64,000 nt of DNA, from assembly GCF_036924645.1 (NCBI RefSeq), contig NZ_JAZHRX010000001.1, positions 1,364,001 to 1,428,000 on the forward strand, read 5' to 3'. Below, piece by piece: positions 3,700 to 32,495 of the stretch. The notes beneath the pieces were generated by a model. That model saw only the letters and a list, made by a program, of their open reading frames with translations, did no database searches and had not been told where the DNA came from. Source of the DNA: Bradyrhizobium sp. AZCC 2176 (GTDB taxonomy: Bacteria > Pseudomonadota > Alphaproteobacteria > Rhizobiales > Xanthobacteraceae). The first letter of the stretch is position 1, and every line of letters begins with the position of its first letter. The translations under genes and the position numbers were made by a program.

Positions 3700-5559
3700 T
3701 CAGCCCATCTCTTCCAACTCGTCGATCATGCCCGCGATGACGGACAGCCCGCCGTCCCAGAATTTGGGATCCTTGGCATCGAGCCCGAACGGCCTCAGCA
3801 GTTCGGAATAATGCTTGGTGCCTCCCGCCGCCAGCATGGCGAGATAGCGCTCGGCAAAGCCTTCGGAGGCATTCTCGTAGACTGCATACAGCGAGTTCAC
3901 CAGGCAATCGCCGAACGCATAGGCGTAAACGTAGAACGGCGAATGGATGAAGTGCGGAATGTACATCCAGAAATTCTCGTAGCCGGGGCGGATGTCGATG
4001 GCCGGCCCGAGGCTCTCGCCCTGCACGCTGAGCCAGATCTGGCCGATACGCTCCGCAGTCAATTCACCGTTCTTGCGCTCGGTATGAATCGCGCGCTCGA
4101 ACGAATAGAACGCGACCTGCCGCACCACGGTGTTGATCATGTCCTCGACCTTGCCGGCGAGCAGCGCCTGGCGCTGCTTGGCGTTTTTGGTCTGCGACAA
4201 TAGCCGCTTGAAGGTCAGCATTTCGCCGAACACGCTTGCCGTCTCGGCTAGCGTCAGCGGCGTCGGCGCCATCAGCGCTCCGTTTTTGGCCGCCAGCACC
4301 TGGTGCACGCCATGGCCGAGCTCATGCGCCAGCGTCATCACGTCGCGGGGCTTGCCCTGGTAGTTCATCAGCACATAGGGATGCGCCGACGGCGTGGTCG
4401 GGTGCGAGAACGCGCCCGGCGCCTTGCCGGGCCGCACCGGCGCATCGATCCAGCGGTCGGTGAAGAAACGTTCCGCAATCGCAGCCATCTCGGTCGAGAA
4501 GCCGCGATACGCCGTCAGCACCATCTTCTGCGCCTCGGGCCAGGCGATCGTGCCGGTCGCCGCAAACGGCAGCGGCGCGTTGCGGTCCCAATGCGCGAGC
4601 TTCTTCTTTTTGAACCAGCCGGCCTTCAGATTGTAGTAGCGGTGCGACAGCCGCGGATAGGCTGCGCGAACCGAGCCGACCAGGGCATCGACGACTTCGC
4701 GCTCGACGCGGTTGTTCAGGTGGCGCGAATCCGCGACATCCTGGAAACCGCGCCAGCGATCGGAAATCTCCTTGTCCTTGGCGAGCGTGTTGGTGATCAG
4801 CGCAAAGGTCCGCTCATTGTCCTTGAAGGTCTTTGCCAGCGCTTGGCCTGCGGCCTTGCGTTTTTCCGGCGCGCGGTCCTGCAGCAGGTTGAGCGCAGGC
4901 TCGATCGCCAATTCCTTTCCGCTCACCCTGAAGCGCAGGCCGGAGATGGTCTGGTCGAACAGCCGGTTCCAGGCGGCATAGCCGCTCTGGGATTTCTCGT
5001 GAAACAACTGCTCGACGCGGTCTTCGAGCTGATACGGCTTGTCCTTGCGCAGATCCTCGATCCATGGCCGGTAGTGGGCGAGCTCGGGCGCCTGCATCGC
5101 GCGCTCGATCACGGCATCGTCGATGCGATTGAGTTCGAGCGCGAAGAACAGCAAATGCAGCGAGGCCGCCGTCAGCCGCTCGGAAACGTCGCCGTAGAAT
5201 TTGGAGATCACGGGATCGACGCTGTCGCCGGCATGAACGAGGCCGGCATAGGAGCCGAGCCGGCCCGCGAGATCGTCGATCGCCTCGTAGCGCCTGACCG
5301 CCTCGGCGAGCCAACGGCCGCCATCGTCGCGCGTAACGCCTTCCGCCAACTTGGCCTTGTAATCCGTTTCAAAGGCTATGCAGTCGGCATCCATCTTTTG
5401 CAGATCGCGCGCGATTTCGGGCACATCGATGCCGGAATAGAGATCGGTGAGGTTCCATTCCGGCAGTTTGCCGGTTTTGGATTTGGTGGCCGCCTTGCTG
5501 CCCGCGGCTGATTTGCGGGACGTCTTGCCGGTTCGGGAAGTCGCAGATTTCACGCTCAT
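3700..5559 (-). CDS. pepF: M3 family oligoendopeptidase F
   Basis: A 619-residue zinc metallopeptidase of the M3 (thimet/PepF) family that cuts short peptides in the cytoplasm. The zinc motif HELGH lies at residues 412-416 and is followed by the family region with LAETASVFGEML that provides the third ligand glutamate. The N-terminal 30 residues are Lys/Ser/Thr-rich and low in complexity, an extension of the usual ~600-residue protein. The C-terminal part (FMYIPHFIHSPFYVYAYAFG type helices) is typical. It stands alone between the dioxygenase gene and the 147-codon hypothetical gene. Confidence 0.92.
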   Translation of the reverse strand: MSVKSATSRTGKTSRKSAAGSKAATKSKTGKLPEWNLTDLYSGIDVPEIARDLQKMDADCIAFETDYKAKLAEGVTRDDGGRWLAEAVRRYEAIDDLAGRLGSYAGLVHAGDSVDPVISKFYGDVSERLTAASLHLLFFALELNRIDDAVIERAMQAPELAHYRPWIEDLRKDKPYQLEDRVEQLFHEKSQSGYAAWNRLFDQTISGLRFRVSGKELAIEPALNLLQDRAPEKRKAAGQALAKTFKDNERTFALITNTLAKDKEISDRWRGFQDVADSRHLNNRVEREVVDALVGSVRAAYPRLSHRYYNLKAGWFKKKKLAHWDRNAPLPFAATGTIAWPEAQKMVLTAYRGFSTEMAAIAERFFTDRWIDAPVRPGKAPGAFSHPTTPSAHPYVLMNYQGKPRDVMTLAHELGHGVHQVLAAKNGALMAPTPLTLAETASVFGEMLTFKRLLSQTKNAKQRQALLAGKVEDMINTVVRQVAFYSFERAIHTERKNGELTAERIGQIWLSVQGESLGPAIDIRPGYENFWMYIPHFIHSPFYVYAYAFGDCLVNSLYAVYENASEGFAERYLAMLAAGGTKHYSELLRPFGLDAKDPKFWDGGLSVIAGMIDELEEMG

Positions 5560-5604
5560 GATACTTTCAAAATTGGGAGGTGATCAGGAAATGGGCTTGG
5601 GGAA

Positions 5605-6048
5605 TCAGGCGAACGCCGCAAGCTGCGGTACAAACTGGACGAACAGCTCTTCGCCTTCACCCAGCAGCGGCTCGACCTTTTCATGCACCGTATTGCGGAT
5701 CGCACACCACATCGTGATCACCCGTACCATGACCCACGACGTCGACGGAACCGCGGCCTTGGCATGCAACGCTACGAGTTCGAGGTTCCAATGCTCGAAC
5801 AGCAGCCGGCCCAACCCGTCTTCCAGGACGTAACGCCCGCCGATCCGGGATACGCACAACTCGCAAGCCTGATCCGGCAGCGGACCCAGCAGATAGAATT
5901 GGGCGTCGCCCTTCTCTGTCATGCCGGTTTCCCATTCACGTCCCGTCCTCGGTGCCATCGCTGCGCCCAGCACCGCGACAAGGGTGTTGAGCTCCTTTTC
6001 GCTCCATTCGCCGCTGTTTTGTTTGCGCTCGAACGCAACAACACTCAT
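5605..6048 (-). CDS. Conserved-looking hypothetical protein downstream of an XRE regulator
   Basis: A 147-residue soluble protein I do not recognise. It begins MSVVAFERKQNSGEWSEKEL and contains a patch with two cysteines (CELCVSRIGG, around residue 62) and a Trp-rich segment near residue 108. No signal peptide or membrane helix is evident. Its start overlaps the stop of the XRE-regulator gene by four bases, so the two are translationally coupled. The regulator-first pair resembles a toxin-antitoxin layout, but nothing in the protein looks like a known toxin, and a co-factor of the regulator is equally possible. Confidence 0.7.
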   Translation of the reverse strand: MSVVAFERKQNSGEWSEKELNTLVAVLGAAMAPRTGREWETGMTEKGDAQFYLLGPLPDQACELCVSRIGGRYVLEDGLGRLLFEHWNLELVALHAKAAVPSTSWVMVRVITMWCAIRNTVHEKVEPLLGEGEELFVQFVPQLAAFA

Positions 6049-6377
6049 TTGCTTTCCGCTCCGAACAGCAGCCGGTGCAGTTCCGGCTCGTAGTACATTA
6101 ACAGATGCCTAGCGAAGGCGGCCTGTTCAAGGCCCAACTCGCGGGCCCAAGCGCCCATAATTTCGATTGGGACACGGCTGAACCCGTTCTCGACCTGCGA
6201 GATGAACGTGTAATATTTCAGGCCGAGGCGCACCGCGAGATCAGCCTGCGACAATTCGGCATCCGCCCTTCGCTGTTTCAGCCAATCCCCAGCCAGTTTG
6301 CGCAATTGCTTGGCGTCCGGCGTGCCTTTGGCCTGCGCCCGTTCAGCGAAAACGTCTTGATGTTTTACTCGTTTCAT
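6045..6377 (-). CDS. XRE-family helix-turn-helix regulator
   Basis: A 110-residue protein with a Cro/CI-type helix-turn-helix at about residues 30-85: LKQRRADAELSQADLAVRLG followed by FISQVENGFSRVP. The N-terminal ~28 residues are polar and basic; the C-terminal part is a short helical tail ending FGAESK. It is the first gene of a two-gene operon with the 147-codon gene. A 22-bp inverted repeat lies about 30 bp upstream of its ATG, between it and the divergent membrane-protein gene. Autoregulation and control of the divergent gene are plausible inferences. Confidence 0.82.
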   Translation of the reverse strand: MKRVKHQDVFAERAQAKGTPDAKQLRKLAGDWLKQRRADAELSQADLAVRLGLKYYTFISQVENGFSRVPIEIMGAWARELGLEQAAFARHLLMYYEPELHRLLFGAESK

Positions 6378-6406
6378 GATTACTAAACTATCCAGAATGA
6401 ATTGAC

Positions 6407-6428
6407 TGGTAGGTAATGTTCCCTACCA
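6407..6428. promoter_or_regulatory. Inverted repeat between divergent genes, probable XRE operator
   Basis: TGGTAGG-N8-CCTACCA is a perfect 7-bp inverted repeat in the 78-bp gap between the XRE regulator (minus) and the small membrane protein (plus). Its location makes it the obvious operator candidate for the regulator. A hairpin function is less likely because no T-run follows. Confidence 0.55.
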
Positions 6429-6455
6429 CAATTCAGGCGCGCGAATAAGAATCCG

Positions 6456-6797
6456 ATGGCTTTCTTGGACCGCAGTCACATTTTCCGAACCGCCGACCGG
6501 GCTTCCCCGGCGCATGGCAAGGAGTTGATGGCCGGCATCCTTCTCGCCGTGCTGCTTGCGACCCTCGCGATCCGTAATCTGGTGCCGGCAGACGCACTGG
6601 CGCCCGCCATCGTTACACTGCTGTTTGCGACTGGCGCGGCGACTGCCGGAGCGGCGTGGCTTTGTCAGGCCGGCAGATTCCGCATCGCCTGGCTCGACCT
6701 CGCCGGAAGCCTGACTTTCATCGGCATCGTCATCTCGGTTTTGATCGAGCCCGATCAGCTCGTCAGGCTGTGCGGCGTTTCGGATCAATCTGAATAA
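6456..6797 (+). CDS. Small membrane protein of unknown function
   Basis: A 113-residue protein with three predicted transmembrane segments, roughly residues 24-45, 48-70 and 80-98, and a polar N-terminus (MAFLDRSHIFRTADRASP). I do not recognise a family. It is divergent from the XRE-regulator operon, sharing a 78-bp intergenic region that carries an inverted repeat, so it may be under that regulator. The next gene (TerC family) follows in the same direction after about 120 bp. Confidence 0.62.
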   Translation: MAFLDRSHIFRTADRASPAHGKELMAGILLAVLLATLAIRNLVPADALAPAIVTLLFATGAATAGAAWLCQAGRFRIAWLDLAGSLTFIGIVISVLIEPDQLVRLCGVSDQSE

Positions 6798-6915
6798 GGA
6801 ATCCTCTTCGGCGCAGTTTTGACTGCGTCTTCAACCATGTGCGTCCAAGCCCGGGCCCCTCTGGCGGTTCAAGTGAACCGCGATGTCGGATTGGACCTTG
6901 AACGGAGTGGCCCGC

Positions 6916-7560
6916 ATGCTGGAATTCTTCTCCTCACAATCCCTGACAGCGCTTTTCCAGGTCGTGATGATCGACCTGGTGCTCGCCGGCGACAATGCGA
7001 TCGTTATCGGCCTTGCAGCCGCCGGGCTACCCGAGGAGCAGCGCAGGAAGGCCATTCTGGTCGGCATATTGGCCGCCACGGCGCTGCGGATCGGCTTCGC
7101 CAGCATCACGGTCCAACTGCTGCAGATCATCGGGCTGCTGCTTGCCGGCGGCATTCTCCTGCTTTGGGTGTGCTGGAAGATGTGGCGCGAGTTGCGGTCA
7201 CATAAGCATCAGCAGCCGACATTCCAGAATCTGTCGGCCGCAAGGACGATGGACGCCGCCGTCGCGCCCGCTCATCAGAAGACGCTTGGCCAGGCCGTCT
7301 GGCAGATCACCCTCGCCGACGTATCGATGTCGCTCGACAATGTACTGGCGGTCGCAGGGGCCGCGCGGGAGCATCCGATTATTCTGATATTCGGCCTTGG
7401 GCTTTCCATTGCGCTGATGGGTTTCGCCGCGAACTTCATCGCGCGCGTCCTGGAGAAACATCGCTGGGTCGCCTATGTCGGCCTGCTGATCATCCTCTAT
7501 GTGGCATTCGACATGTGTTACCGCGGCGCGATGGAGGTGTGGCAGGACGTCAATGTTTAG
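6916..7560 (+). CDS. TerC family integral membrane protein (YjbE-like)
   Basis: A 214-residue polytopic membrane protein of the TerC family (tellurium resistance C-like; several members are metal, often manganese, exporters). Two internal halves each carry the family signature of acidic residues in a helix: VLAGDNAIVIG near residue 25 and DVSMSLDNVLAVAG near residue 135. About seven hydrophobic segments are visible. I chose the ATG at 6916 because GGAG lies 8 bp upstream of it; an in-frame ATG 11 codons earlier lacks such a site. Substrate and ion specificity cannot be read from the sequence. Confidence 0.85.
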   Translation: MLEFFSSQSLTALFQVVMIDLVLAGDNAIVIGLAAAGLPEEQRRKAILVGILAATALRIGFASITVQLLQIIGLLLAGGILLLWVCWKMWRELRSHKHQQPTFQNLSAARTMDAAVAPAHQKTLGQAVWQITLADVSMSLDNVLAVAGAAREHPIILIFGLGLSIALMGFAANFIARVLEKHRWVAYVGLLIILYVAFDMCYRGAMEVWQDVNV

Positions 7561-7647
7561 CCGAGATGTCAACGTTTAAGAGAGCGTTAATCGGCATCGG
7601 CGAAAGTGCCCCGATTCGATACAATCCAGTAGCGTGCGGGGAGAGCC

Positions 7648-19479: not shown

Positions 19480-20610
19480 CTACTCCCAGCTCAGCGCCCC
19501 GCCGTTCTGATATTCGATCACCCGCGTCTCGAAGAAGTTCTTCTCCTTCTTCAGGTCCATCGCCTCCGACATCCATGGAAACGGATTTTCGGTTTCGTCG
19601 AACACCCGCTGTAGCCCAAGCTGCGCACAGCGGCGGTTGGCGATGAAGTGCATGTAGCTCTCGCACAGCGCTGCGTTCAGCCCGAGGAAGCCGCGCGGCA
19701 TGGTGTCCCGCCCATAGGCCGCTTCCAGTTCAGCCGCCTCGCGCACCATGGCGCGGACTTCGTCCTGAAAGGCTTTGGTCCACAAATGCGGATTCTCGAT
19801 CTTGATCTGGTTGATGACATCGATCCCGAAGTTCAGATGAATCGATTCGTCGCGCAGGATGTATTGATACTGCTCGGCAATACCTACCATCTTGTTGCGG
19901 CGGCCGAGCGAGAGGATCTGGGCGAATCCCGTATAGAACCACATGCCCTCGAAGATGACATAGAAGGCGACGAGGTCGCGCAGGAACGCCTGGTCGGCTT
20001 CCGGTGTCCCGGTCCTGAAGTCCGGGTCATCGAGGTGCTGGGTATGTTTCAGCGCCCACGCCGCCTTGTCGGTGATCGAGGGCACCTCGCGATACATGTT
20101 GAACAACTCGCCCTCGTCGAGGCCAAGGCTTTCGACGACGTACTGGAAGGTGTGGGTGTGAACGGCCTCCTCGAAGGATTGCCGCAGCAGATACTGCCGG
20201 CACTCCGGATTGGTCAGATGGCGATAGATCGCCAGCACGATGTTGTTGGCGACGAGGCTTTCGGAGGCCGCGAAGAAGCCGAGGTTGCGCTTGATGGCGC
20301 GGCGCTCGTCTTCCGTCAGCCCATCACGCGACTTCCACAGCGCGATGTCGGCCTGCATCGAGACTTCGGTCGGCATCCAGTGATTGTTGCAGCCGGCGAG
20401 GTATTTCTCCCATGCCCATTTGTATTTCAGCGGCAGCAATTGATTGACGTCGGCGCGGCAGTTGATCATCCGCTTGTCGTCCACGGACACCCGTCCGCCG
20501 CCGCGGTCGATGGTGCCGAGGCCGGTTTGATCGGCCGCGACATTGGTTTGCGCCACCAAGGGAGGCGGCATCCGGCGCGGGGGTGCAGTGGGTTCGGACC
20601 AGTCGAGCAT
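19480..20610 (-). CDS. nrdB: Class Ia ribonucleotide reductase, beta (radical) subunit
   Basis: A 376-residue diiron protein that generates the tyrosyl radical used by NrdA. Iron-ligand motifs are visible: [13 protein letters not shown] (Glu/His pair) and [10 protein letters not shown] (Glu and His in the second half), with the Tyr/Asp region in between. Length is typical. The ATG at 20610 has AAGGAAAC upstream; longer in-frame starts would enter nrdA. It lies 25 bp downstream of nrdA and belongs to the same operon, behind the cobalamin riboswitch. The C-terminus contains the conserved [14 protein letters not shown], which docks on NrdA. Confidence 0.96.
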
Positions 20611-20635
20611 TATCGTTTCCTTGCTTCTTGTCTGC

Positions 20636-23551
<2,916 letters not shown>

Positions 23552-23640
23552 CGGCAGACCCCGTGGTGTTGTTGGGGCTGGATGTCTTGAGGCGACGCTG
23601 CATAGGATGCCCGGCGCAAGGCACGGGCATGAATCTGCGA

Positions 23641-23865
23641 GCGACCGCCGGGACACCCCGCCCGTGGACGTTTTTCGGTGTCGCGGCAGGTCTCCTGGCT
23701 CGCAGGTCAGCGTTGCACCCCGTCTTCCCAATGCGTGGCCGCATCAGTGACGTGAAAAATCGGGAGCAACTCACTGCTTACAGTTGCGGGGGCAGCGCCG
23801 GATTCTCGCAAAAACGCGCGATACACCGGCTTCCCTCTTAGCCACCAAATCTTGCGATCTGGCAG
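23641..23865 (-). ncRNA. Cobalamin riboswitch of the nrdAB leader
   Basis: On the minus strand the conserved core is complete. AGAGGGAAGCCGGTG is followed by AATCCGGCGCTGCC, then CCCGCAACTGTAAGC (the B12 box), GGGAAGACGG and GAGCCAGGAGACCTGCC. A downstream hairpin, CGGG-N8-CCCG (near 23643-23671), may be the regulatory kissing hairpin. The leader ends 90 bp before nrdA. The nrdA Shine-Dalgarno GGGG can pair with a CCCC about 10 nt upstream of it. Bound adenosylcobalamin should switch nrdAB off. A TTGACA lies at 23903-23908 as a possible -35, though spacing to a -10 is unclear. 23552-24032 contains no gene. Confidence 0.93.
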
Positions 23866-24032
23866 GCCGCGACGCCTATATCTGGTACCATTCGTAGCAA
23901 AGTGTCAATGGGGCGCGGGAGACCGATGCCCGCAATTTCCAAAAAATTTCCGCAGGAGGGGTGGGAAACACGAAAAAGCCGATTCTTTCTCCGCGTGAAA
24001 GCCGTTTTCCCCGATATTCCGGCCACGTCGGA

Positions 24033-25454
24033 TCACGACGTGGCATAGGGCGCGAATCGGGATCGCGTCTCGTCGATTCGAAGGGCCCGGCCGGCCGGGG
24101 GAAACGCGCGCTGCGGACAATCCGGTCGTTCGCACACCTTGCAGCCCATGCCGATCGGCGTCGCCAGCGACGGATCGATCTTGAGGCCCTGCGAATAGAC
24201 GATTCGGTCCGCATGGCGAACATCGCATCCCAGGGCGACCGCAAACGTCTTGGCGGGCGCTCCGTAGCCTCCGCTGCCGTGCGACACCGTCCGGGCAACC
24301 CAGAGATAGGTTCGCTCATCGGGCATCCGCGCCACCTGCGTCAGGATACGCCCCGGGTTGGCGAAGGCCTCATAGACGTTCCACAGCGGACAGGTCCCGC
24401 CGACCCGCGAAAAATGGAAATCGGTCGCCGACTGGCGTTTCGATATGTTTCCGGCGCGATCGACGCGGATGAAGAAGAACGGCACGCCGCGCGCATTATG
24501 GCGCTGCAAGGTACTCAGCCGGTGACAGATCGTTTCAAAGCCCACGCCGAACCGGTGACTGAGCAATTCGATGTCGTAGCGGCGCCGCTCCGCCTCGGCC
24601 AGGAAAACGGCGTAAGGCAAGATCAGCGCACCGGCGAAATAGTTTGCTAGCCCGATGCGGGCGAGGCCGCGCGATTCGTCGCTGGTGAATTTTGCCTTGT
24701 CGACGATTGCGCGGATCGCCTCGTCCAGTTCCAGAATGGCAATCTGCGTTGCGAGCTGAAACGCCTGCTGGCCCGGATCAAGGCTTGGCGACAGTCGTAG
24801 CGTTCGCGTGCGGCCATCGAACAGACGCTGCGTTCCCGATCCCAGCTCGCCGCTCGCGTCGATCAGGACAGTCACGCCGTGATGGCTTTCGAGATACGAC
24901 ACCAGGCCCGGCGTCATCCGCCCGATCGGTAACCCCATCCGGCCGGCGATCGCCTCCGCCGCGTCGTCGAGCTCAGCAATATAGTTGTGCTGCAGATAGA
25001 AGAAGTCGCGGACTTCCTCGAACGGCGTGGTCGGCAGAACCGCCGCTGCGGCCTGACGGTCCTCGCCGAGCCGCGCGGAGATGGCCGCATATTGCTCGGT
25101 GGCATGGCGATACTTCTGGTTGAGATTGACCAGCGCGCGCCCGACCGCAGGCATGTTCTGCGCGAGTTCACGAAGTTCGGCGATAGCAATCGTCTCTCCC
25201 AATGCAGGATCCGCCAGCGCTTCGCGAAGGTCCGAGATCAAGCGCGCTTCGTCGCCCTCGGCGAACGACTGCACGTCCAGGCCGAACACCGAATTGAGCG
25301 CCAGCAGCACCGGCACGGTGAGCGGCCGCTGATTGTTTTCCAACTGGTTGAGGTAGCTCAGGGAGATCCCGAGCTTCCCGGCAAGTGCCGCCTGCGTCAG
25401 GCGCTGCTCCTCACGCAGCCTTTTCAGCCGCACGCCCATGAAGGTCTTTTTCAT
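24033..25454 (-). CDS. Short-chain fatty acyl-CoA regulator (ScfR/RamB-like)
   Basis: A 473-residue regulator. Residues ~8-65 form an XRE helix-turn-helix (LKRLREEQRLTQAALAGKLG, then LNQLENNQRPL). A central ImmA/IrrE-like domain (about 190-320) follows, and a C-terminal DUF2083 domain ends with a Cys cluster, CKVCERPDCPQRAFP. This architecture defines the ScfR family (RamB, MccR, PccR), which senses short-chain acyl-CoAs and controls propionate or acetate assimilation. It is divergent from the thioesterase-prpDCB operon, and the 134-bp gap holds TTTGCAAA-type sites. I chose the ATG at 25454 because of GAAGGTGAT upstream and the immediate HTH. Confidence 0.92.
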   Translation of the reverse strand: MKKTFMGVRLKRLREEQRLTQAALAGKLGISLSYLNQLENNQRPLTVPVLLALNSVFGLDVQSFAEGDEARLISDLREALADPALGETIAIAELRELAQNMPAVGRALVNLNQKYRHATEQYAAISARLGEDRQAAAAVLPTTPFEEVRDFFYLQHNYIAELDDAAEAIAGRMGLPIGRMTPGLVSYLESHHGVTVLIDASGELGSGTQRLFDGRTRTLRLSPSLDPGQQAFQLATQIAILELDEAIRAIVDKAKFTSDESRGLARIGLANYFAGALILPYAVFLAEAERRRYDIELLSHRFGVGFETICHRLSTLQRHNARGVPFFFIRVDRAGNISKRQSATDFHFSRVGGTCPLWNVYEAFANPGRILTQVARMPDERTYLWVARTVSHGSGGYGAPAKTFAVALGCDVRHADRIVYSQGLKIDPSLATPIGMGCKVCERPDCPQRAFPPAGRALRIDETRSRFAPYATS

Positions 25455-25463
25455 CGCATCACC

Positions 25464-25553
25464 TTCGCAACCTTTGCAAATAAACCGGCTCGTCTTCGCA
25501 AGACTATGCTTTTTCAGCCATTTCGATGGTGCACGTTTGTAGATATTGCGAAG
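25464..25553. promoter_or_regulatory. Cluster of TTTGCAAA-type operator half-sites in the scfR-prp divergent promoter
   Basis: Four related sites lie in 90 bp: TTCGCAA (25464-25470), the perfect palindrome TTTGCAAA (25473-25480), CTTCGCAAG (25494-25502) and TTGCGAAG (25546-25553). ScfR regulators such as PccR and RamB are reported to bind TTTGCAAA-like repeats. Position between the regulator and the operon it should control supports the reading. Confidence 0.65.
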
Positions 25554-25588
25554 TCGGTACGGAATAACAAGTCGTCCGGAGCAGGAAA

Positions 25589-26020
25589 ATGCATTCAGTG
25601 GCGTCGCCAACCCTTAATCCCGACGAAACCCGGTTCGTGGAGATGGTGTTTCCGGAGCAGGCCAATCACTACGGCACGCTGTTCGGCGGCCATGCGCTGA
25701 GCCTGATGGGCAAGGCGGCATTCGTCACGGCCACGCGGCACGCGCGGCAGAGCGTCGTCATGGCGACCTCGGACAAGATCGAATTTCATGAGCCGATCCA
25801 TGTCGGCGAACTCGTCGAGCTCGTTGCCCAGGTCGTACGGGTCGGCCGCAGTTCCATGACGGTTGCCGTCGACATGATCCGCGAAGACCTGATCAGCGGC
25901 AGGCGGAAATCCGCGGTGCGCGGAACGTTCGAGATGGTCGCGGTGAACGAATTCGGCCGTCCGGTCCCGATCACGCAACCAGCCATGACCGGTTCAATCC
26001 AGAAGGAAGCTGCGTCTTGA
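25589..26020 (+). CDS. Acyl-CoA thioesterase, hotdog fold (YciA-like)
   Basis: A 143-residue hotdog-fold thioesterase. The motif [20 protein letters not shown] carries the family Asn/His and the HGG-like turn (here FGGHAL), and [21 protein letters not shown] matches the acyl-CoA thioesterase pattern of YciA/BACH. It would release short acyl groups from CoA. It is the first gene of the prp operon: its stop overlaps the prpD start by three bases. A role in relieving toxic build-up of propionyl- or methylcitryl-CoA is a reasonable inference from context. GGAG lies 10 bp before the ATG. Confidence 0.87.
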
Positions 26021-27567
26021 AACAGCATACCGTTCGTACTTTCAAATCGGCCGATCATCTGCCGCGCGCGGAGCAACTGGCCTGGAAGATCGCCGAGGTC
26101 GCCGCCGACCCGGTCGGGGTCGAGAGCGACGTGGTGGGGATGCTGGGCAACCGCATCATCGATAACGCCGCCGTTGCCGCCGCCTCGATCGCGCGGCGTC
26201 CTGTTGTCAGCGCGCGAGCGCAAGCCGAGACGCATCCGTTCCAGCCGGGAGCCACCGTGTTCGGGTTGACGCGGTCGCAGCGGATTTCGCCGGAATGGGC
26301 CGCCTGGGCCAACGGCGTCGCCGTCCGCGAACTCGATTTCCACGACACGTTCCTGGCGGCGGACTATTCGCATCCCGGCGACAACATTCCGCCGGTGCTG
26401 GCTGTCGCCCAGCATTGCGGGTTGACGGGCGCGGACCTCGTGCGCGGGCTGACTGCGGCGTATGAAATTCAGGTCGATCTCGTGAAGGGCATCTGCCTGC
26501 ACGAGCACAAGATCGATCACATCGCCCATCTCGGGCCGTCGGCTGCCGCCGGAATCGGCGCGTTGCTCGGTCTGCCGGCCGAGACGATCTATCAGGCCGT
26601 CCAGCAGGCGCTGCACGTCACCACCACCACGCGGCAGTCACGCAAGGGCGAGATCTCGAGCTGGAAGGCCTATGCGCCGGCCTTCGCCGACAAGATGGCA
26701 ATTGAATCCGTCGATCGCGCGATGCGCGGCGAAGGCGCGCCGTCACCCGCCTATGAGGGCGAGGACGGCTTCATCGCCTGGCTGCTCGGTGGCCCGCGCG
26801 CGGAATACGCGGTGCCGCTGCCTGAGAAGGGCGAGCCGAAGCGCGCCATTCTCGACACTTACACCAAGGAGTACTCGGCGGAATACCAGAGCCAGGCGCT
26901 GATCGACCTGGCGCGCCGGCTGAGACCGAAAATCGGCGATCTCTCGACGATCGAAAGCATCGTCATCCACACCAGCCATCACACCCACTACGTCATCGGC
27001 ACCGGTGCCAACGATCCGCAGAAGATGGACCCGAAGGCGAGCCGCGAAACGCTCGACCATTCGATCATGTATATTTTTGCGGTCGCGCTCGAAGACGGCG
27101 GCTGGCATCACGAGCGATCTTACGCGCCCGAGCGTGCCGGCCGCGAGACGACGGTTGCGCTGTGGCGCAAGATCTCCACGGTCGAAGACCCCGCATGGAC
27201 CCGCCGCTACCACAGCCACGATCCGAAGGAAAAGGCGTTCGGCGGCCGTGTCGTCTTGAGACTGAAAGGCGGCTCCGTCATCAGCGATGAAATTGCGCTG
27301 GCAGATGCACATCCACTGGGCGCCCGCCCGTTCAAGCGGCCGGACTACATCCGGAAATTCCGCAACCTGGCGGAAGACGTGATTGCCCCTGCTGAGCAGG
27401 ATCGCTTCATCGCAACGGTGGAGCGACTGGCGTCGCTGAAGGCGGGTGAGCTGACCGACCTGACCTTCACGGTTGATCCAAAATTCCTCGGCAGCACGTC
27501 AACGCACGGCATCTTCGATTGGCGCGACACCACCCCGGCCACAGTCCAGCGCGCCGCTAATCGATAA
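26017..27567 (+). CDS. prpD: 2-methylcitrate dehydratase
   Basis: A 516-residue MmgE/PrpD family protein that dehydrates 2-methylcitrate in the methylcitrate cycle. Characteristic blocks: [13 protein letters not shown] near residue 47, [20 protein letters not shown] near residue 105 and [22 protein letters not shown] near residue 205. Length fits PrpD (480-520). The start codon is TTG at 26017, overlapping the thioesterase stop (TTGA), with AAGGAAG 9 bp upstream; no better ATG exists nearby. It is followed by prpC after 11 bp. Assignment to PrpD rather than another MmgE member rests on prpC and prpB being next to it. Confidence 0.93.
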
Positions 27568-27578
27568 GGGAGATTGAG

Positions 27579-28751
27579 ATGACGGACATCAAGCCTTCGC
27601 CCAAGAAATCGGTCGCGCTCTCCGGCGTGATCGCCGGCGATACTGCGCTGTGCACGGTCGGCCGCACCGGAAACGACCTGCATTATCGCGGCTACGATAT
27701 TCTCGATGTCGCCGAAAGCTGCGAGTTCGAGGAAATCGCGTATCTCCTCGTTCACGGCAGCCTGCCCACTCTGTCGGAACTCAGAAACTACAAGGCCAAG
27801 CTGAAGGCGCTGCGCGCCTTGCCGCTCGCGGTGCTGCAGACGCTGGAATTGCTTCCCGCCGCTGCGCATCCGATGGACGTCCTGAGAAGCGGCGTTTCCG
27901 CACTCGGCTGCATCCTTCCCGAGGCCCATGATCACAACCAGCCCGGCGCCCGCGACATTGCCGACCGGCTGATGGCCTCGCTTGGATCGATGCTGCTCTA
28001 TTGGCACCACTACGCCCATCATGGCCGCCGGATCGACGTCGAAACCGACGACGATTCGATCGGATCGCACTTCCTGCATCTGCTCCACGGCAGGAAGCCG
28101 CCGCCATCGCACGAGCGCGCGATGCATACTTCGCTGATCCTCTACGCGGAGCATGAGTATAACGCCTCGACGTTCACCGCGCGCTCGATCGCCGGCACCG
28201 GCTCGGATCTCTATTCCGCGATAACAGGCGCGATCGGCGCGCTGCGCGGGCCGAAGCATGGCGGCGCCAACGAGATCGCGTTCGAAGTGCAGAAGCGCTA
28301 CGGAACTACGGAAGAGGCGGAGGCTGATATCCGCCGCAGGGTCGCGGCCAGGGAGGTCGTGATCGGTTTCGGCCACCCGGTCTACAGCATTGCCGACCCC
28401 CGCAACAAGGTGATCAAGGAAGTCGCGCGCCGCCTGAGCATTGAAAGCGAGAACACCCGCATGTTCGAAATCGCCGACCGGATCGAGGCCGTCATGGCCG
28501 ACGCCAAGAAGATGTTCGCCAATCTCGACTGGTTCAGCGCGGTCTCCTACCACGCGATGGGGGTGCCGACCGCGATGTTCACGCCCCTGTTCGTGATTTC
28601 CCGAACATCCGGATGGGCGGCGCATGTGATGGAACAGCGCATCAACAACAAGATCATCCGCCCCGCCGCGAACTATATCGGCCCGGAGAATCTGAAGTTT
28701 GTGCCGCTGCATGAGCGTGGCAAAGCCGCCGTCGCCCCTCGCGCCGCATAA
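27579..28751 (+). CDS. prpC: 2-methylcitrate synthase
   Basis: A 390-residue citrate-synthase-fold enzyme that condenses propionyl-CoA with oxaloacetate. Active-site regions are visible: [22 protein letters not shown] with the first catalytic His, [16 protein letters not shown] with the second, and [13 protein letters not shown] with the oxaloacetate-binding His. The catalytic Asp is in [20 protein letters not shown]. The shorter length (390 rather than ~430) and the prp context favour methylcitrate synthase over housekeeping citrate synthase. It has an AGGGAGA site and follows prpD by 11 bp; prpB follows after 10 bp. Confidence 0.94.
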
Positions 28752-28761
28752 GGAGGCAACA

Positions 28762-29682
28762 ATGGTGTATCTCCTGGGTTCCGACATAGCCGACACGCCG
28801 GCCGGGGCTCGCTTCCGCGACCTCCTGAACAAGCCGGACATTCTCCAGATGCCGGGTGCGCATAACGGAATGGCCGCGCTGCAGGCCCGTGACGCCGGCT
28901 TTTCCGCGCTCTATCTGTCGGGCGCGGCGATGACGGCTTCGATGGGCCTGCCGGATCTCGGCATTATCACGATCGAGGAAGTCGGCTTCTTCATCCGCCA
29001 GGTGGCGCGCGCCAGCGGCCTGCCGGTACTGGTCGATGGCGACACCGGCTATGGCGAAGCGCTCAATGTCATGAACATGGTGCGCACCTTCGAGGATGCC
29101 GGCGCTGCCGCCGTGCACATCGAGGACCAACTGCTTCCGAAGAAGTGCGGCCACCTCAACGACAAGAAGCTGGCGGATGCGCGCGACATGGCAACCAAGG
29201 TCGCCGCCGCCGCAAAAGCGCGGCGTCATCTTTATCTGATCGCAAGGACGGACGCTGCGGCCAGCGAAGGCATGGACGGCGCGGTGGCGCGTGCAAAGCT
29301 TTATCTGGAAGCGGGGGCGGACGCGATCTTCCCGGAAGCAATGATTTCGCGCGAGATGTTCCAGGAATTCGCCAGGCGCGTTCCCGGTGCTCCGCTGCTC
29401 GCGAACATGACGGAGTTCGGCAAGACGCCGTTCTTCACGGCATGCGAGTTCGAGGCGATGGGCTATCGCATGGTGATCTGGCCGGTGTCGTCGCTCCGCG
29501 TCGCCAACAAGGCCCAGCAGAACCTGTTTGCTACCCTCAAGCGCGACGGCAGCACCCGCAAAATGCTCGACCAGATGCAGACGCGCGCCGAGCTGTACGC
29601 AGCGATCGGGCTGCAGGATTACGAGGCGCTCGACGCCTCCATCGTCAGAACCATCGTTCCCACAGCCATGCCGCAGAGGTGA
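28762..29682 (+). CDS. prpB: 2-methylisocitrate lyase
   Basis: A 306-residue isocitrate-lyase-superfamily enzyme that splits 2-methylisocitrate into pyruvate and succinate. The active-site loop KKCGHL (in QLLPKKCGHLNDKKL) is intact, together with DGDTGYGEALN for metal binding and ARTDAAASEG. Length matches PrpB (~295-305). The ATG at 28762 has a perfect AGGAGG 5 bp upstream; an in-frame start 21 codons earlier lies inside prpC and is rejected. It is the last gene of the operon. No acnD or prpF is nearby, consistent with PrpD doing the dehydration and a housekeeping aconitase the rehydration. Confidence 0.95.
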   Translation: MVYLLGSDIADTPAGARFRDLLNKPDILQMPGAHNGMAALQARDAGFSALYLSGAAMTASMGLPDLGIITIEEVGFFIRQVARASGLPVLVDGDTGYGEALNVMNMVRTFEDAGAAAVHIEDQLLPKKCGHLNDKKLADARDMATKVAAAAKARRHLYLIARTDAAASEGMDGAVARAKLYLEAGADAIFPEAMISREMFQEFARRVPGAPLLANMTEFGKTPFFTACEFEAMGYRMVIWPVSSLRVANKAQQNLFATLKRDGSTRKMLDQMQTRAELYAAIGLQDYEALDASIVRTIVPTAMPQR

Positions 29683-29805
29683 ATTATGTAGTTATCGCGC
29701 TTCGATCGGAATGGCGTCCATCGAATGATGGCAGAGAGCGCCGCGGGGGAACGACCGATCTCATATTGACTGAGATCGCCGTTGACCTTAACTGAACTCG
29801 TCGTG

Positions 29806-30024
29806 GTTCTTCGGGCTGGATCGGCCCGAAGCTAAGAGGGAAGCCGGTGCGGCCGAAAAAGCCAAAGCCGGAGCTGCCCCCGCAACTGTAAGCGGCGAGT
29901 TGCTGTCCAACAAAGTCACTGAGACCTCACGGGTTTCGGGAAGGCCGGACAGCAGCATTGACCCGCGAGCCAGGAGACCTGCCTCGACAACATACACGTC
30001 CTCGGGCGGGGTGTCCCGGTGGTG
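29806..30024 (+). ncRNA. Cobalamin riboswitch of the metE leader
   Basis: The aptamer core is complete: AGAGGGAAGCCGGTG, AGCCGGAGCTGCC, then CCCGCAACTGTAAGC (B12 box, about 29866-29893), GGGAAGGCCGGA and GAGCCAGGAGACCTGCC (ending 29983). Just after it comes CGGGCGGGGTGTCCCGG, nearly identical to the same position in the nrdAB riboswitch and able to form a CGGG/CCCG hairpin. The metE ATG lies 86 bp beyond. With B12 present the riboswitch should repress metE, leaving methionine synthesis to MetH. The 29683-30110 gap otherwise holds no gene. Confidence 0.94.
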
Positions 30025-30087
30025 CGGTTGCGATTCCGCGCGCGCTCCGCCGTACGCGGAATCCAGACGTGTCACTTCGGCCTTTGC

Positions 30088-30102
30088 CCCCAACTTTTGG
30101 GG
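30088..30102 (+). promoter_or_regulatory. Hairpin masking the metE ribosome site
   Basis: CCCCAA-CTT-TTGGGG folds into a 6-bp hairpin whose right arm is the GGGG that would serve as Shine-Dalgarno 8 nt before the metE ATG (30111). It is a likely expression platform for translational control by the riboswitch upstream. The pairing is seen; the switching is inferred. Confidence 0.55.
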
Positions 30103-30110
30103 TTAAGCCA

Positions 30111-32495
30111 ATGTCTTCAACATCGTCATCTTCTACATCGTCTACTTCCACCATCTCTACTTCCTCGCTTCCCGTTGCTGCCCTCGGCACGCCGCGGATC
30201 GGCCCGCGCCGCGAGCTGAAATTCGCTTTGGAAAGCTTCTGGTCGGGCGCAACCGACGAGGAGGCGCTGGTCGAAACCGGCGCCGGGCTTCGCGCGGCCA
30301 ACTGGGCGCGCCAGAAGAAACTCGGCGTCAGCGTGATCCCGTCGAACGATTTCTCGTTCTACGACCAGATGCTGGATACGTCAGTGATGGTCGGCGCGAT
30401 TCCTGAAATCTATCGCTGGAACGGCGGCCCGGTCCCGCTCTCGACTTACTTTGCGATGGCCCGCGGCGCGCAAGGCAAGACGCACGAGGCGAGCTGCGGC
30501 CATACGGATCATGGGCACGATGCCGCCCACGGCGCGCCGGCGCAGGAAATGACAAAATGGTTCGACACCAACTATCACTACATGGTGCCCGAGCTGGCGA
30601 GGGATCAGCAGTTCACCCTCGCCTCGCGCAAGCCGATTGAGGAATATGAGGAAGCCAAGGCGTTGGGCTATCAGACCCGCCCCGTGCTGGTCGGCCCGGT
30701 CACGTTCCTCAAGCTCGCCAAGAGCAGGGACGCCGGCTTCAATCCGTTGTCGCTGCTCGACCGGTTGCTGCCGATCTATATCGAGGTGCTGCGCGAACTG
30801 GCCTACGGGGGCGCCGACTGGGTGCAGATCGACGAGCCATGTCTCGTACTCGACCTCGACATCGTCGGGCAGCAGGCGCTGCATTACGCCTATACAGAGA
30901 TCACCAATGCGGTGCCGCAGCTCAAGATCATGCTCGCGACCTATTTCGGCGGGCTGGGCGCTAACCGCGATGTCGCGCTGGCGCTGCCCGTCGCCGGCCT
31001 GCATCTCGATCTGGTGCGTGCGCCAGATCAGATCGACGACCTCGCCGGTTTTCCAAAAGACCGCGTGCTGTCGCTCGGAATCATCGACGGCCGTAACATC
31101 TGGCGCGCGGACTTGAACCGGATTCTTGGCCGGCTCGAACCCGTGATCGCGAGACTCGGCAAAGACCGCGTGCAGATCGCGCCCTCCTGCTCGCTGCTGC
31201 ATGTTCCGATCGACCTGGCGCTGGAAACGGGGCTCGATTCCGAAATCAAGAGCTGGCTGGCGTTCTCCGTACAGAAGCTCGAGGAATTGACCACGCTCGG
31301 GACGGCGCTTGCCAGCGGACGTGGCAGTGTCGAAGCCGCCCTGCGGGTTTCGGACGAGGCGGCCGCCGCCCGCAAGGCTTCGCCGCGAATTCACGATGCG
31401 AAGGTCGCGGCGCGCATCGCCGGCATCGATGACGCCATGCGTCGCCGCGCCAGCCCATTCGCCGAGCGCGCCGGCGTCCAACACGAGCGCTTCAACCTGC
31501 CGGCCTTCCCGACCACGACCATCGGCTCGTTCCCGCAGACGGCCGAAGTCAGGAAAGCCCGCGCCGCGCACGCCAGCGGCGCCCTGACGGACGAAGTCTA
31601 CAAGGTCTATCTGCAGGACCAGACCGCCCGCGCGGTGCAGTGGCAGGAAACCATCGGTCTCGACGTGCTCGTGCATGGCGAGTTCGAGCGCAACGACATG
31701 GTGCAATACTTTGGCGAACAGCTCGCAGGCTTTGCCTTCACCGCAAACGGCTGGGTGCAATCCTACGGATCGCGCTACGTTCGCCCGCCGGTCTTGTTCG
31801 GCGACGTCTCCCGCCCGAAACCGATGACGGTCGAGTGGTGGCAGTACGCCCAGTCGCTGACAAAAAAGCCGATGAAGGCAATGCTGACCGGTCCCGTCAC
31901 CATCCTGAACTGGTCCTTCGTGCGCGATGATTTGCCGCGCAGCGAAGCCTGCCGGCAGATCGCGCTCGCGATCCGCGACGAGGTCGCCGATCTCGAGGCG
32001 GCCGGCGCCGGCATGATCCAGATCGATGAGGCGGCGCTACGCGAGGGTTTGCCGCTGCGCAAATCCGAATGGAAAGCCTATCTGGACTGGGCCGTCGATG
32101 CCTTCCGCCTCTGTTCCTCCGGCGTGCGCGACGAGACGCAGATCCACACCCATATGTGCTATTCGGAGTTCAACGACATCATCGGCGCGATCGGCGCGAT
32201 GGACGCCGACGTGATCTCGATCGAGACCTCGCGCTCGAAAATGGAGCTGCTCGACGCGTTCAGGAACTACAGCTATCCGAACGAAATCGGCCCCGGCGTC
32301 TACGACATCCACTCGCCGCGGGTGCCCGAAATCGAAGAGATGACCGCCCTGCTCAAGCTGGCGCGGATGCGGCTCAACGACAGCCAGATCTGGATCAATC
32401 CGGATTGCGGATTGAAGACAAGGAAATGGGAAGAGGTGCGGCCTGCGCTCGTCAACATGGTGGCGGCGGCTCGCGAATTGCGGGCTTCAGCCTAG
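30111..32495 (+). CDS. metE: B12-independent methionine synthase
   Basis: A 794-residue enzyme that methylates homocysteine from methyltetrahydropteroyl-triglutamate using zinc, without cobalamin. Two homologous halves: the N-terminal one begins [17 protein letters not shown], the C-terminal one [16 protein letters not shown]. Zinc-binding residues appear in [11 protein letters not shown] (His-x-Cys) and near the end in NPDCGLKTR. Unusually, the start adds about 20 residues of almost pure Ser/Thr ([17 protein letters not shown]) before the family start. There is also a His-rich insert ([10 protein letters not shown]) near residue 130. The gene stands alone behind a cobalamin riboswitch. Confidence 0.96.

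Follow-up and report, generated by a model that had tools for sequence, protein, structure and literature searches.

Genes and cobalamin riboswitches of the locus

The stretch of DNA analysed here (the window: 64,000 nucleotides of Bradyrhizobium sp. AZCC 2176, positions 1,364,001 to 1,428,000 of contig NZ_JAZHRX010000001.1) lies in a single-contig genome of 7.15 Mb and contains a 13-kb block in which the genes of cobalamin (B12)-free enzymes, i.e., the ribonucleotide reductase (RNR) genes nrdAB, the methylcitrate cycle genes prpDCB and the methionine synthase gene metE, are found together with the regulator gene scfR and a thioesterase gene (Table 1). A preliminary description, made from the letters alone, had placed these B12-free genes side by side, with a complete cobalamin riboswitch in front of both nrdAB and metE, none in front of prp, and an ScfR regulator between the nrdAB leader and prp; family models and Rfam searches of the window confirmed each of these points. 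Overlooked in that description, between scfR and prpD, was the 4HBT thioesterase gene, the stop codon of which overlaps the TTG start of prpD. All three genes of a methylcitrate cycle operon, prpB, prpC and prpD, are present, PrpD being assigned by its Pfam families, and its nearest named relatives, among the best 80 of 591, are from Bradyrhizobium. The start of scfR was chosen among possible starts, and the true start of nrdB probably lies downstream of the start of the listed open reading frame.

The genome contains one prpD, one class I nrdA and one metE, each within the cluster (E 1e-100 to 1e-150; metE 1e-100). The search of the same genome for the B12-dependent counterparts, suggested in the preliminary description, returned all three outside the island, namely NrdJ (2355 bits, cut-off 1737), MetH (2196 bits, cut-off 1497) and methylmalonyl-CoA mutase (1303 bits, cut-off 876); CobN is encoded in this genome as well (1679 bits, cut-off 1248). 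B12-dependent enzymes were sought via PF02310 and PF02867 only, and further ones may exist.

Table 1. Position, strand and supporting evidence of genes, riboswitches and predicted elements of the island (window coordinates).
Feature	Position	Strand	Evidence
nrdB, class I ribonucleotide reductase beta subunit	19480..20808	-	NF005550 682 bits (cut-off 309), residues 88-442; PF00268
nrdA, class I ribonucleotide reductase alpha subunit, ATG at 23551	20636..23551	-	NF005544 1722 bits (cut-off 965); PF02867, ATP cone
Predicted C-run/GGGG hairpin covering nrdA ribosome-binding site	23545..23590	-	fold -17.4 kcal/mol, z -3.2
Cobalamin riboswitch of nrdAB	23668..23886	-	RF00174 128.2 bits, gathering 31.5, full model 1-189
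scfR, PrpR/MccR-like regulator (HTH, M78/IrrE-like, ScfRs domains)	24033..25454	-	PF09856 239 bits; PF06114, PF01381
Candidate ScfR operator TTCGCAAC-C-TTTGCAAA, layout of 17-bp MtPrpR site	25464..25480	+	sole 0-mismatch match in window
4HBT thioesterase-superfamily gene, opens prp operon	25589..26020	+	PF03061 63.5 bits (cut-off 20.6)
prpD, 2-methylcitrate dehydratase	26017..27567	+	NF042438 906 bits (cut-off 950, below it); PF03972, PF19305
prpC, 2-methylcitrate synthase	27579..28751	+	NF009006 689 bits (cut-off 550)
prpB, methylisocitrate lyase	28762..29682	+	TIGR02317 428 bits (cut-off 354)
Cobalamin riboswitch of metE, ~105 bases past prpB stop	29787..30000	+	RF00174 129.5 bits, gathering 31.5, full model 1-189
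Predicted C-run/GGGG hairpin covering metE ribosome-binding site	30078..30118	+	fold -13.2 kcal/mol, z -1.8
metE, B12-independent methionine synthase	30111..32495	+	NF003556 1141 bits (cut-off 541)

Exactly two cobalamin riboswitches are found by Rfam in the window and three in the whole genome, the third leading a TonB-dependent receptor gene. Because only three exist in 7.15 Mb, the occurrence of two in one 13-kb stretch is hardly due to chance. Control of prp by a riboswitch in its own leader was dropped as an explanation, since Rfam gives no match before prp in the window. Cobalamin riboswitches in front of metE and nrdAB are a known means of control, and a kissing loop formed by L5 and L13 is a feature of this riboswitch class. 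As in known riboswitch-controlled B12-free isozymes, both leaders are full members of RF00174; what differs is that they enclose a prp cassette lacking any riboswitch. A C-run facing GGGG is located just upstream of the start codon in 34/34 nrdA and 26/27 metE leaders scanned, the hairpin arms hardly vary among the leaders, and an L13 motif (GGGCGGGGTGTC-like) follows downstream of the aptamer in all of them (34/34 nrdA, 27/27 metE). In the 150-nt fold of the nrdA leader, the stretch GGGC-GGGUGUC pairs with GACAUCC-GCCC, which is an alternative pairing of L13 to the C-run and therefore points to competition for the C-run. From the folds and the conserved motifs, both leaders are predicted to bind the ligand and to control the downstream gene, in such a way that the L13 loop would be held by the aptamer loop L5 when cobalamin is bound, with the ribosome-binding site closed, and by the C-run when it is not. 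A scan of positions 23400-30200 returned no sigma-70 promoter, compared to 1.4 in shuffles, and eight terminator-like sites, compared to 5.9.

The regulator ScfR and its candidate operator

All three domains characteristic of the PrpR/MccR subgroup, ScfRs, M78 and helix-turn-helix (HTH), are present in ScfR, and the protein aligns with the structure of Mycobacterium tuberculosis PrpR (MtPrpR; PDB 6cz6, 413 bits), with its Phe145 at the position of MtPrpR Phe155. The MtPrpR numbering was derived from the tag and from the neighbouring residues M153 and E156 named in PMC6765138, a source in which Phe155 is described to decide the response of PrpR to propionyl-CoA and in which RamB has a His. Among 75 ScfR rows, each being the best ScfR match of a locus and possibly not the copy adjacent to prp, this position is occupied by Phe in 51, Tyr in 23 and His in one; thus, an aromatic Phe or Tyr is found in 74/75, the sole deviating row being that of the gammaproteobacterial locus L119. 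ScfR was considered as a RamB and this was rejected, as NF038139 yields 608 bits compared to a cut-off of 700 and as a Phe is present where MtRamB has His.

The candidate operator consists of two TTTGC(A/G)AA palindromes at 1-base spacing, one box being perfect and the other (TTCGCAAC) differing from TTCGCAAA by one base. The window thereby resembles MtPrpR both in operator layout (TTTGCAAA/TTTGCgAA, 1-base spacing) and in the pocket Phe of its regulator (PMC6765138). The pair of boxes is found in 59/65 homologous scfR/prp intergenic regions, while mononucleotide shuffles give a mean of 0.005 of 65. Besides the site at 25464, the window holds no exact operator match, and direct control of nrdAB or metE by ScfR was discarded; one operator-like site with three mismatches is located at 24129, inside scfR. 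Because ScfR shares with PrpR the ligand-pocket residue and the operator layout, prp is probably responsive to propionyl-CoA and hence indirectly to B12.

We consider it likely that the locus is a B12-bypass island with two kinds of sensors, riboswitches for nrdAB and metE and ScfR for prp, its enzymes serving as the B12-free counterparts of the NrdJ, MetH and methylmalonyl-CoA mutase encoded elsewhere. Plentiful cobalamin would bind both leaders, and pairing of the L13 loop (GGGCGGGG) with the aptamer loop L5 would free the C-run to pair with the GGGG ribosome-binding sites of nrdA and metE, by which translation would stop; under scarce cobalamin, a free L13 would hold the C-run and both genes would be translated. 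In the case of prp, the absence of adenosylcobalamin would stall the mutase and let propionyl-CoA accumulate, which may be bound by ScfR and lead to activation of the thioesterase-prpDCB genes from their operator. The prp genes would in this way sense the failure of B12 by its metabolic consequence, and a link by ScfR sensing propionyl-CoA is favoured over a link by a shared riboswitch.

Recurrence of the cluster and exchange of its parts

The island interpretation is supported by the recurrence of the cluster. In a set of named loci, which comprises the best 80 of 591 PrpD loci and is biased to close relatives of the PrpD of the window, gene content was determined by tblastn and riboswitches by a profile that was partly checked with Rfam. 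A cobalamin riboswitch is located near prpD in 33 of these 80 loci (32 by profile and L119 by Rfam), compared to 0.92 expected by chance at 0.61 riboswitches per Mb; this density (353 in 579 Mb of 119 family genomes) stems from the family of the window under stricter filters, yet it was applied to all lineages. In 28/80 loci, carrying 18 genus names by title, a B12-free isozyme gene stands directly behind the riboswitch (27 found by script, and L119). All 14 of the 32 profile-positive loci that were rechecked with Rfam were confirmed, whereas one of 20 rechecked among the 48 negatives, L119, turned positive, the other 28 negatives resting on the profile alone; seven profile negatives from other samples stayed negative.

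The preliminary description had called for a comparison of gene order in relatives and had regarded dispersal, with adjacency unique to one strain, as an argument against coordination. The block recurs in the genus and beyond it. In the named set, five Bradyrhizobium loci (L042-L045, L058; the last with no thioesterase match) show the order of the window with riboswitches on nrdA and metE, as do KLAP40 (L053), a Rhizobiales isolate (L064, where additional genes precede metE) and, from the Sphingomonadales, Erythrobacter tepidarius (L074); Xanthobacter L069 contains the same genes and both riboswitches in a different order. The gammaproteobacterium L119, a Porticoccus metagenome-assembled genome, has nrdBA-riboswitch-scfR-prp, with the riboswitch (70.7 bits) between scfR and nrdA, a differing prp gene order and identities of 37% for PrpC and 45% for PrpB. 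In the sample of 117 genus genomes, a riboswitch stands beside prp in eight of the ten other prpD-bearing genomes, seven of which have the full block with both riboswitches; in the eighth, L174, prp-riboswitch-metE is located on a short contig. PrpD and NrdA co-occur in this sample, NrdA being present in 8/11 genomes with PrpD and in 25/106 others (Fisher p 0.0017, relatedness uncorrected). Overall, NrdA is found in 33/117 and MetE in 64/117 genomes. Additional metE copies, whose pieces are 63-86% identical to the one in the island, are split or contain stops in several genomes of the genus (G119, G137, G145, G156, G159, G174, G187, G192 and G196), and some of these genomes also carry an unbroken copy. 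The samples overlap in that L042 and L168 as well as L045 and L170 are the same genomes, which stand in both riboswitch-count samples and in the ScfR rows, and G105 (L168) is counted in the genus and family samples alike.

Genomes of the genus that have NrdA and no PrpD (25, of which 20 were examined) show the arrangement without the cassette. In 12/20, metE and nrdAB are divergent, each with its riboswitch, and the gap between the riboswitches measures 110-121 bp in ten, 201 in one and 778 in one. No metE riboswitch occupies this position in the remaining eight: two of them, L204 and L212, are short contigs, and in L218-L220 the riboswitch-led metE lies several kb off or on a different side. 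The interval between the riboswitches spans 5.45-8.96 kb in the window and in seven cassette-bearing relatives, where it is filled by scfR and prp. On an NrdA tree, from which the duplicates L042 and L045 were dropped, the cassette state changes seven times by parsimony, at least four of these changes being required by branches with good support; NrdA is 98% identical between L172, which has the cassette, and L211, which does not. These comparisons show gain or loss of the scfR-prp cassette at a fixed slot, which is bordered by the divergent metE and nrdAB leaders. In one genus genome, L173, about 3 kb of extra DNA (4451-7583) lie between the nrdA riboswitch and scfR.

The fixed slot also lends itself to another explanation, according to which riboswitch-led nrdAB and metE form a B12 pair and scfR-prp is a mobile passenger in a permissive gap that answers to propionate supply only. 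The short divergent gap in 10/12 prp-free genomes, the repeated changes of prp state on the tree and the many prp clusters elsewhere that have no riboswitch agree with it. We nevertheless regard it as unlikely, given that this gene neighbourhood is found again in separate lineages and with varying isozymes, its loci being about 35 times as many as expected, and that the neighbouring prp genes of M. tuberculosis do respond to B12 according to PMC10924821 and PMC8196197.

Returning to the B12-bypass interpretation, the comparison of identities hints at transfer of the island between lineages. Erythrobacter shares with the window 75-78% identity in NrdA, 80% in PrpD and 72% in MetE, and the nearer Roseiarcaceae isolate L052 shares 73, 82 and 74%; the hint arises because Erythrobacter and L052 are roughly equal in the closeness of their island proteins, while FtsH falls from 76% to 64%. 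In the family of Erythrobacter, prpD occurs in 4/149 genomes; two have a riboswitch (Erythrobacter itself and the record L099 with identical coordinates) and two have none.

The partner isozymes beside scfR-prp are interchangeable, with NrdAB, short NrdA, NrdD or NrdI on the one hand and MetE or MesX-MesD on the other. Riboswitch-led genes next to scfR-prp encode anaerobic-type NrdD in Rhodomicrobium L077, Rhodobacter capsulatus L087 and Rhodovulum L088, NrdI in Metarhizobium L068 and Maritimibacter L084, short NrdA in Stella L085 and the class-sample loci L179-L181, and MesX-MesD in Ochrobactrum L061 and Paracoccus marinus L078. In these last two loci MesX-MesD takes the role that MetE has in the window, and the word riboswitch is absent from the main text of the MesX-MesD paper (PMC7857596). 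Because different isozymes swap beside the same core, selection that keeps B12-free functions together is suggested. That the genes cluster because of a different common condition (e.g., oxygen status or cobalt supply) and B12 is incidental is a very remote prospect: although RNR classes differ in their use of oxygen (PMC12713380) and MesX-MesD requires it (PMC7857596), NrdAB and anaerobic-type NrdD occupy the same place, and the common element is the cobalamin riboswitch.

Further riboswitch-led neighbours are BtuB-like (2), FecCD (1), GbcA-like oxygenase (3) and BLUF proteins (2), and 5/52 riboswitches have no assigned gene. A B12-bypass island predicts B12-free roles for other riboswitch-led genes of this kind, e.g., the GbcA-like oxygenase, which is possibly the B12-free partner of MtgBCD. 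B12-dependent demethylation of glycine betaine has been described, with the dioxygenase GbcAB mentioned as an alternative route (PMC12478193), and the riboswitch-led GbcA-like genes fit the scheme because GbcAB offers this other route. These Rieske oxygenase genes are led by riboswitches at L068 13788-13988 (+), L070 15674-15873 (-) and L074 2858-3064 (-), with 103-110 bits; the L068 copy reaches 524 bits with NF058607, below the cut-off of 670, and its nearest PDB entry is 4qup. Genes for BLUF-domain proteins follow riboswitches at L087 4556-4760 (-) and L088 14724-14933 (-) (PF04940; L087 weak, below cut-off). Uptake genes join some clusters, as riboswitches near prp lead TonB receptors or a FecCD permease (L065 13807-13986 +, L086 16556-16727 +, L080 387-555 +); elsewhere in the genome of the window, a riboswitch at L038 7361-7541 (+) leads an uptake gene.

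A broader interpretation, toward which we lean slightly less than away from it, is that Alphaproteobacteria and at least one gammaproteobacterium share a modular B12-bypass island, moving between lineages, in which partner isozymes are swapped around an scfR-prp core and ScfR acts as an indirect B12 sensor by propionyl-CoA. The families swapped would tentatively comprise NrdAB, short NrdA, NrdI operons, NrdD, MetE, MesX-MesD and perhaps GbcA, and a single locus might then, though we hold this with some reserve, combine sensing of the cofactor with sensing of the consequence of its loss.

Known clusters and the proposed link of prp to B12

The M. tuberculosis genes prpR, prpDC, Rv1132 and metE make up a B12-repressed cluster, and the proteins PrpD and PrpC are reported to be absent when B12 is added (PMC10924821). 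The same repression is described in PMC8196197, which, as far as it bears on prp, leaves the mechanism open. The window has the gene content and the metE riboswitch of this type of cluster, with an ScfR-family regulator, prpDC and riboswitch-led metE adjoining each other. Unlike the published cluster, which has no nrd genes, it adds a second riboswitch leading nrdAB, and among its relatives the partner isozymes vary. To our knowledge, the M. tuberculosis cluster has no prpB, and we take its prpDC to be on the strand opposite to metE. Coordination of prp with B12 is proposed on account of the M. tuberculosis precedent and of ScfR as the likely link.

A more direct link would exist if prp and metE formed one transcription unit and the riboswitch fed back on the joint transcript. 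This is very improbable. The prpB stop does lie on the same strand only about 105 bases before the metE riboswitch, and Devosia crocina (L073) shows the order riboswitch-metE-prpDCB; in the window, however, the riboswitch is downstream of prp and its predicted output is translational, and M. tuberculosis prp is B12-responsive although annotation places metE on the complementary strand (Rv1133c, PMC4428469). For L073, a metE-prpDCB operon behind one riboswitch was rejected, as metE and prpD are 280 bp apart, with repeat-like sequence between them.

Several results weigh against the B12-bypass interpretation with propionyl-CoA as the signal for prp. The pairing of L13 to the C-run is absent from the 150-nt fold of the metE leader. 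The nrdAB/scfR/prp/metE block is a minority state in the genus: prpD is found in only 11/117 genomes (own included), 106/117 are without such a prpD, and 25/33 NrdA-bearing genomes lack it. In the family sample, prpD occurs in 14/119 genomes and in the class sample in 27/289 (own included in both), with a riboswitch nearby at 4/13 other family loci and 3/26 other class loci, the latter corresponding to a Poisson p of 0.003 against the density of 0.61 per Mb (relatedness uncorrected). Short contigs, e.g., L194, L202, L234, L237 and L239, may hide neighbours in such counts. Among loci with an scfR match, a riboswitch is present in 2/8 (family), 3/4 (class) and 32/56 (named set), so that a riboswitch is missing at many prp clusters that share the regulator. 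Moreover, riboswitches show no significant enrichment at distances of up to 5 kb from prpD (18/31, p 0.14, loci of ±10.7 kb). Finally, according to PMC10370305, neither Paracoccus denitrificans nor Rhodobacter capsulatus showed a growth phenotype after deletion of mccR under the conditions described, and P. denitrificans prp rose 300-fold on acetate, an experiment for which that account mentions no B12 limitation. This rise fits a propionyl-CoA signal, yet it demonstrates that no loss of B12 is required. The putative MccR-prp operon of P. denitrificans resembles the window in having scfR beside thioesterase, prpD, prpC and prpB genes; its description in PMC10370305 names no link to B12, whereas in the R. 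capsulatus strain L087 the riboswitch-led nrdD stands beside scfR.

The island is a variant of a type already published, the B12-repressed prpR-prpDC-metE cluster of M. tuberculosis, from which it differs by the second riboswitch before nrdAB and by its interchangeable partners; the fixed slot and the interchange of partners had not been part of the preliminary description. Within the open-access literature, to which the search was confined (subscription literature was outside its scope), no paper was found that joins cobalamin riboswitch, methylcitrate, nrdAB and metE, and the island is undescribed in related titles and abstract starts among the matches listed. One locus here ties three B12-dependent reactions to B12-free replacements, and it offers a candidate and testable answer to the question how M. 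tuberculosis prp follows B12 without a known riboswitch of its own (PMC8196197). Apart from the island, the window contains a terC RNA at 6843-6898 on the plus strand (RF03067, 51.5 bits, gathering 39.9).

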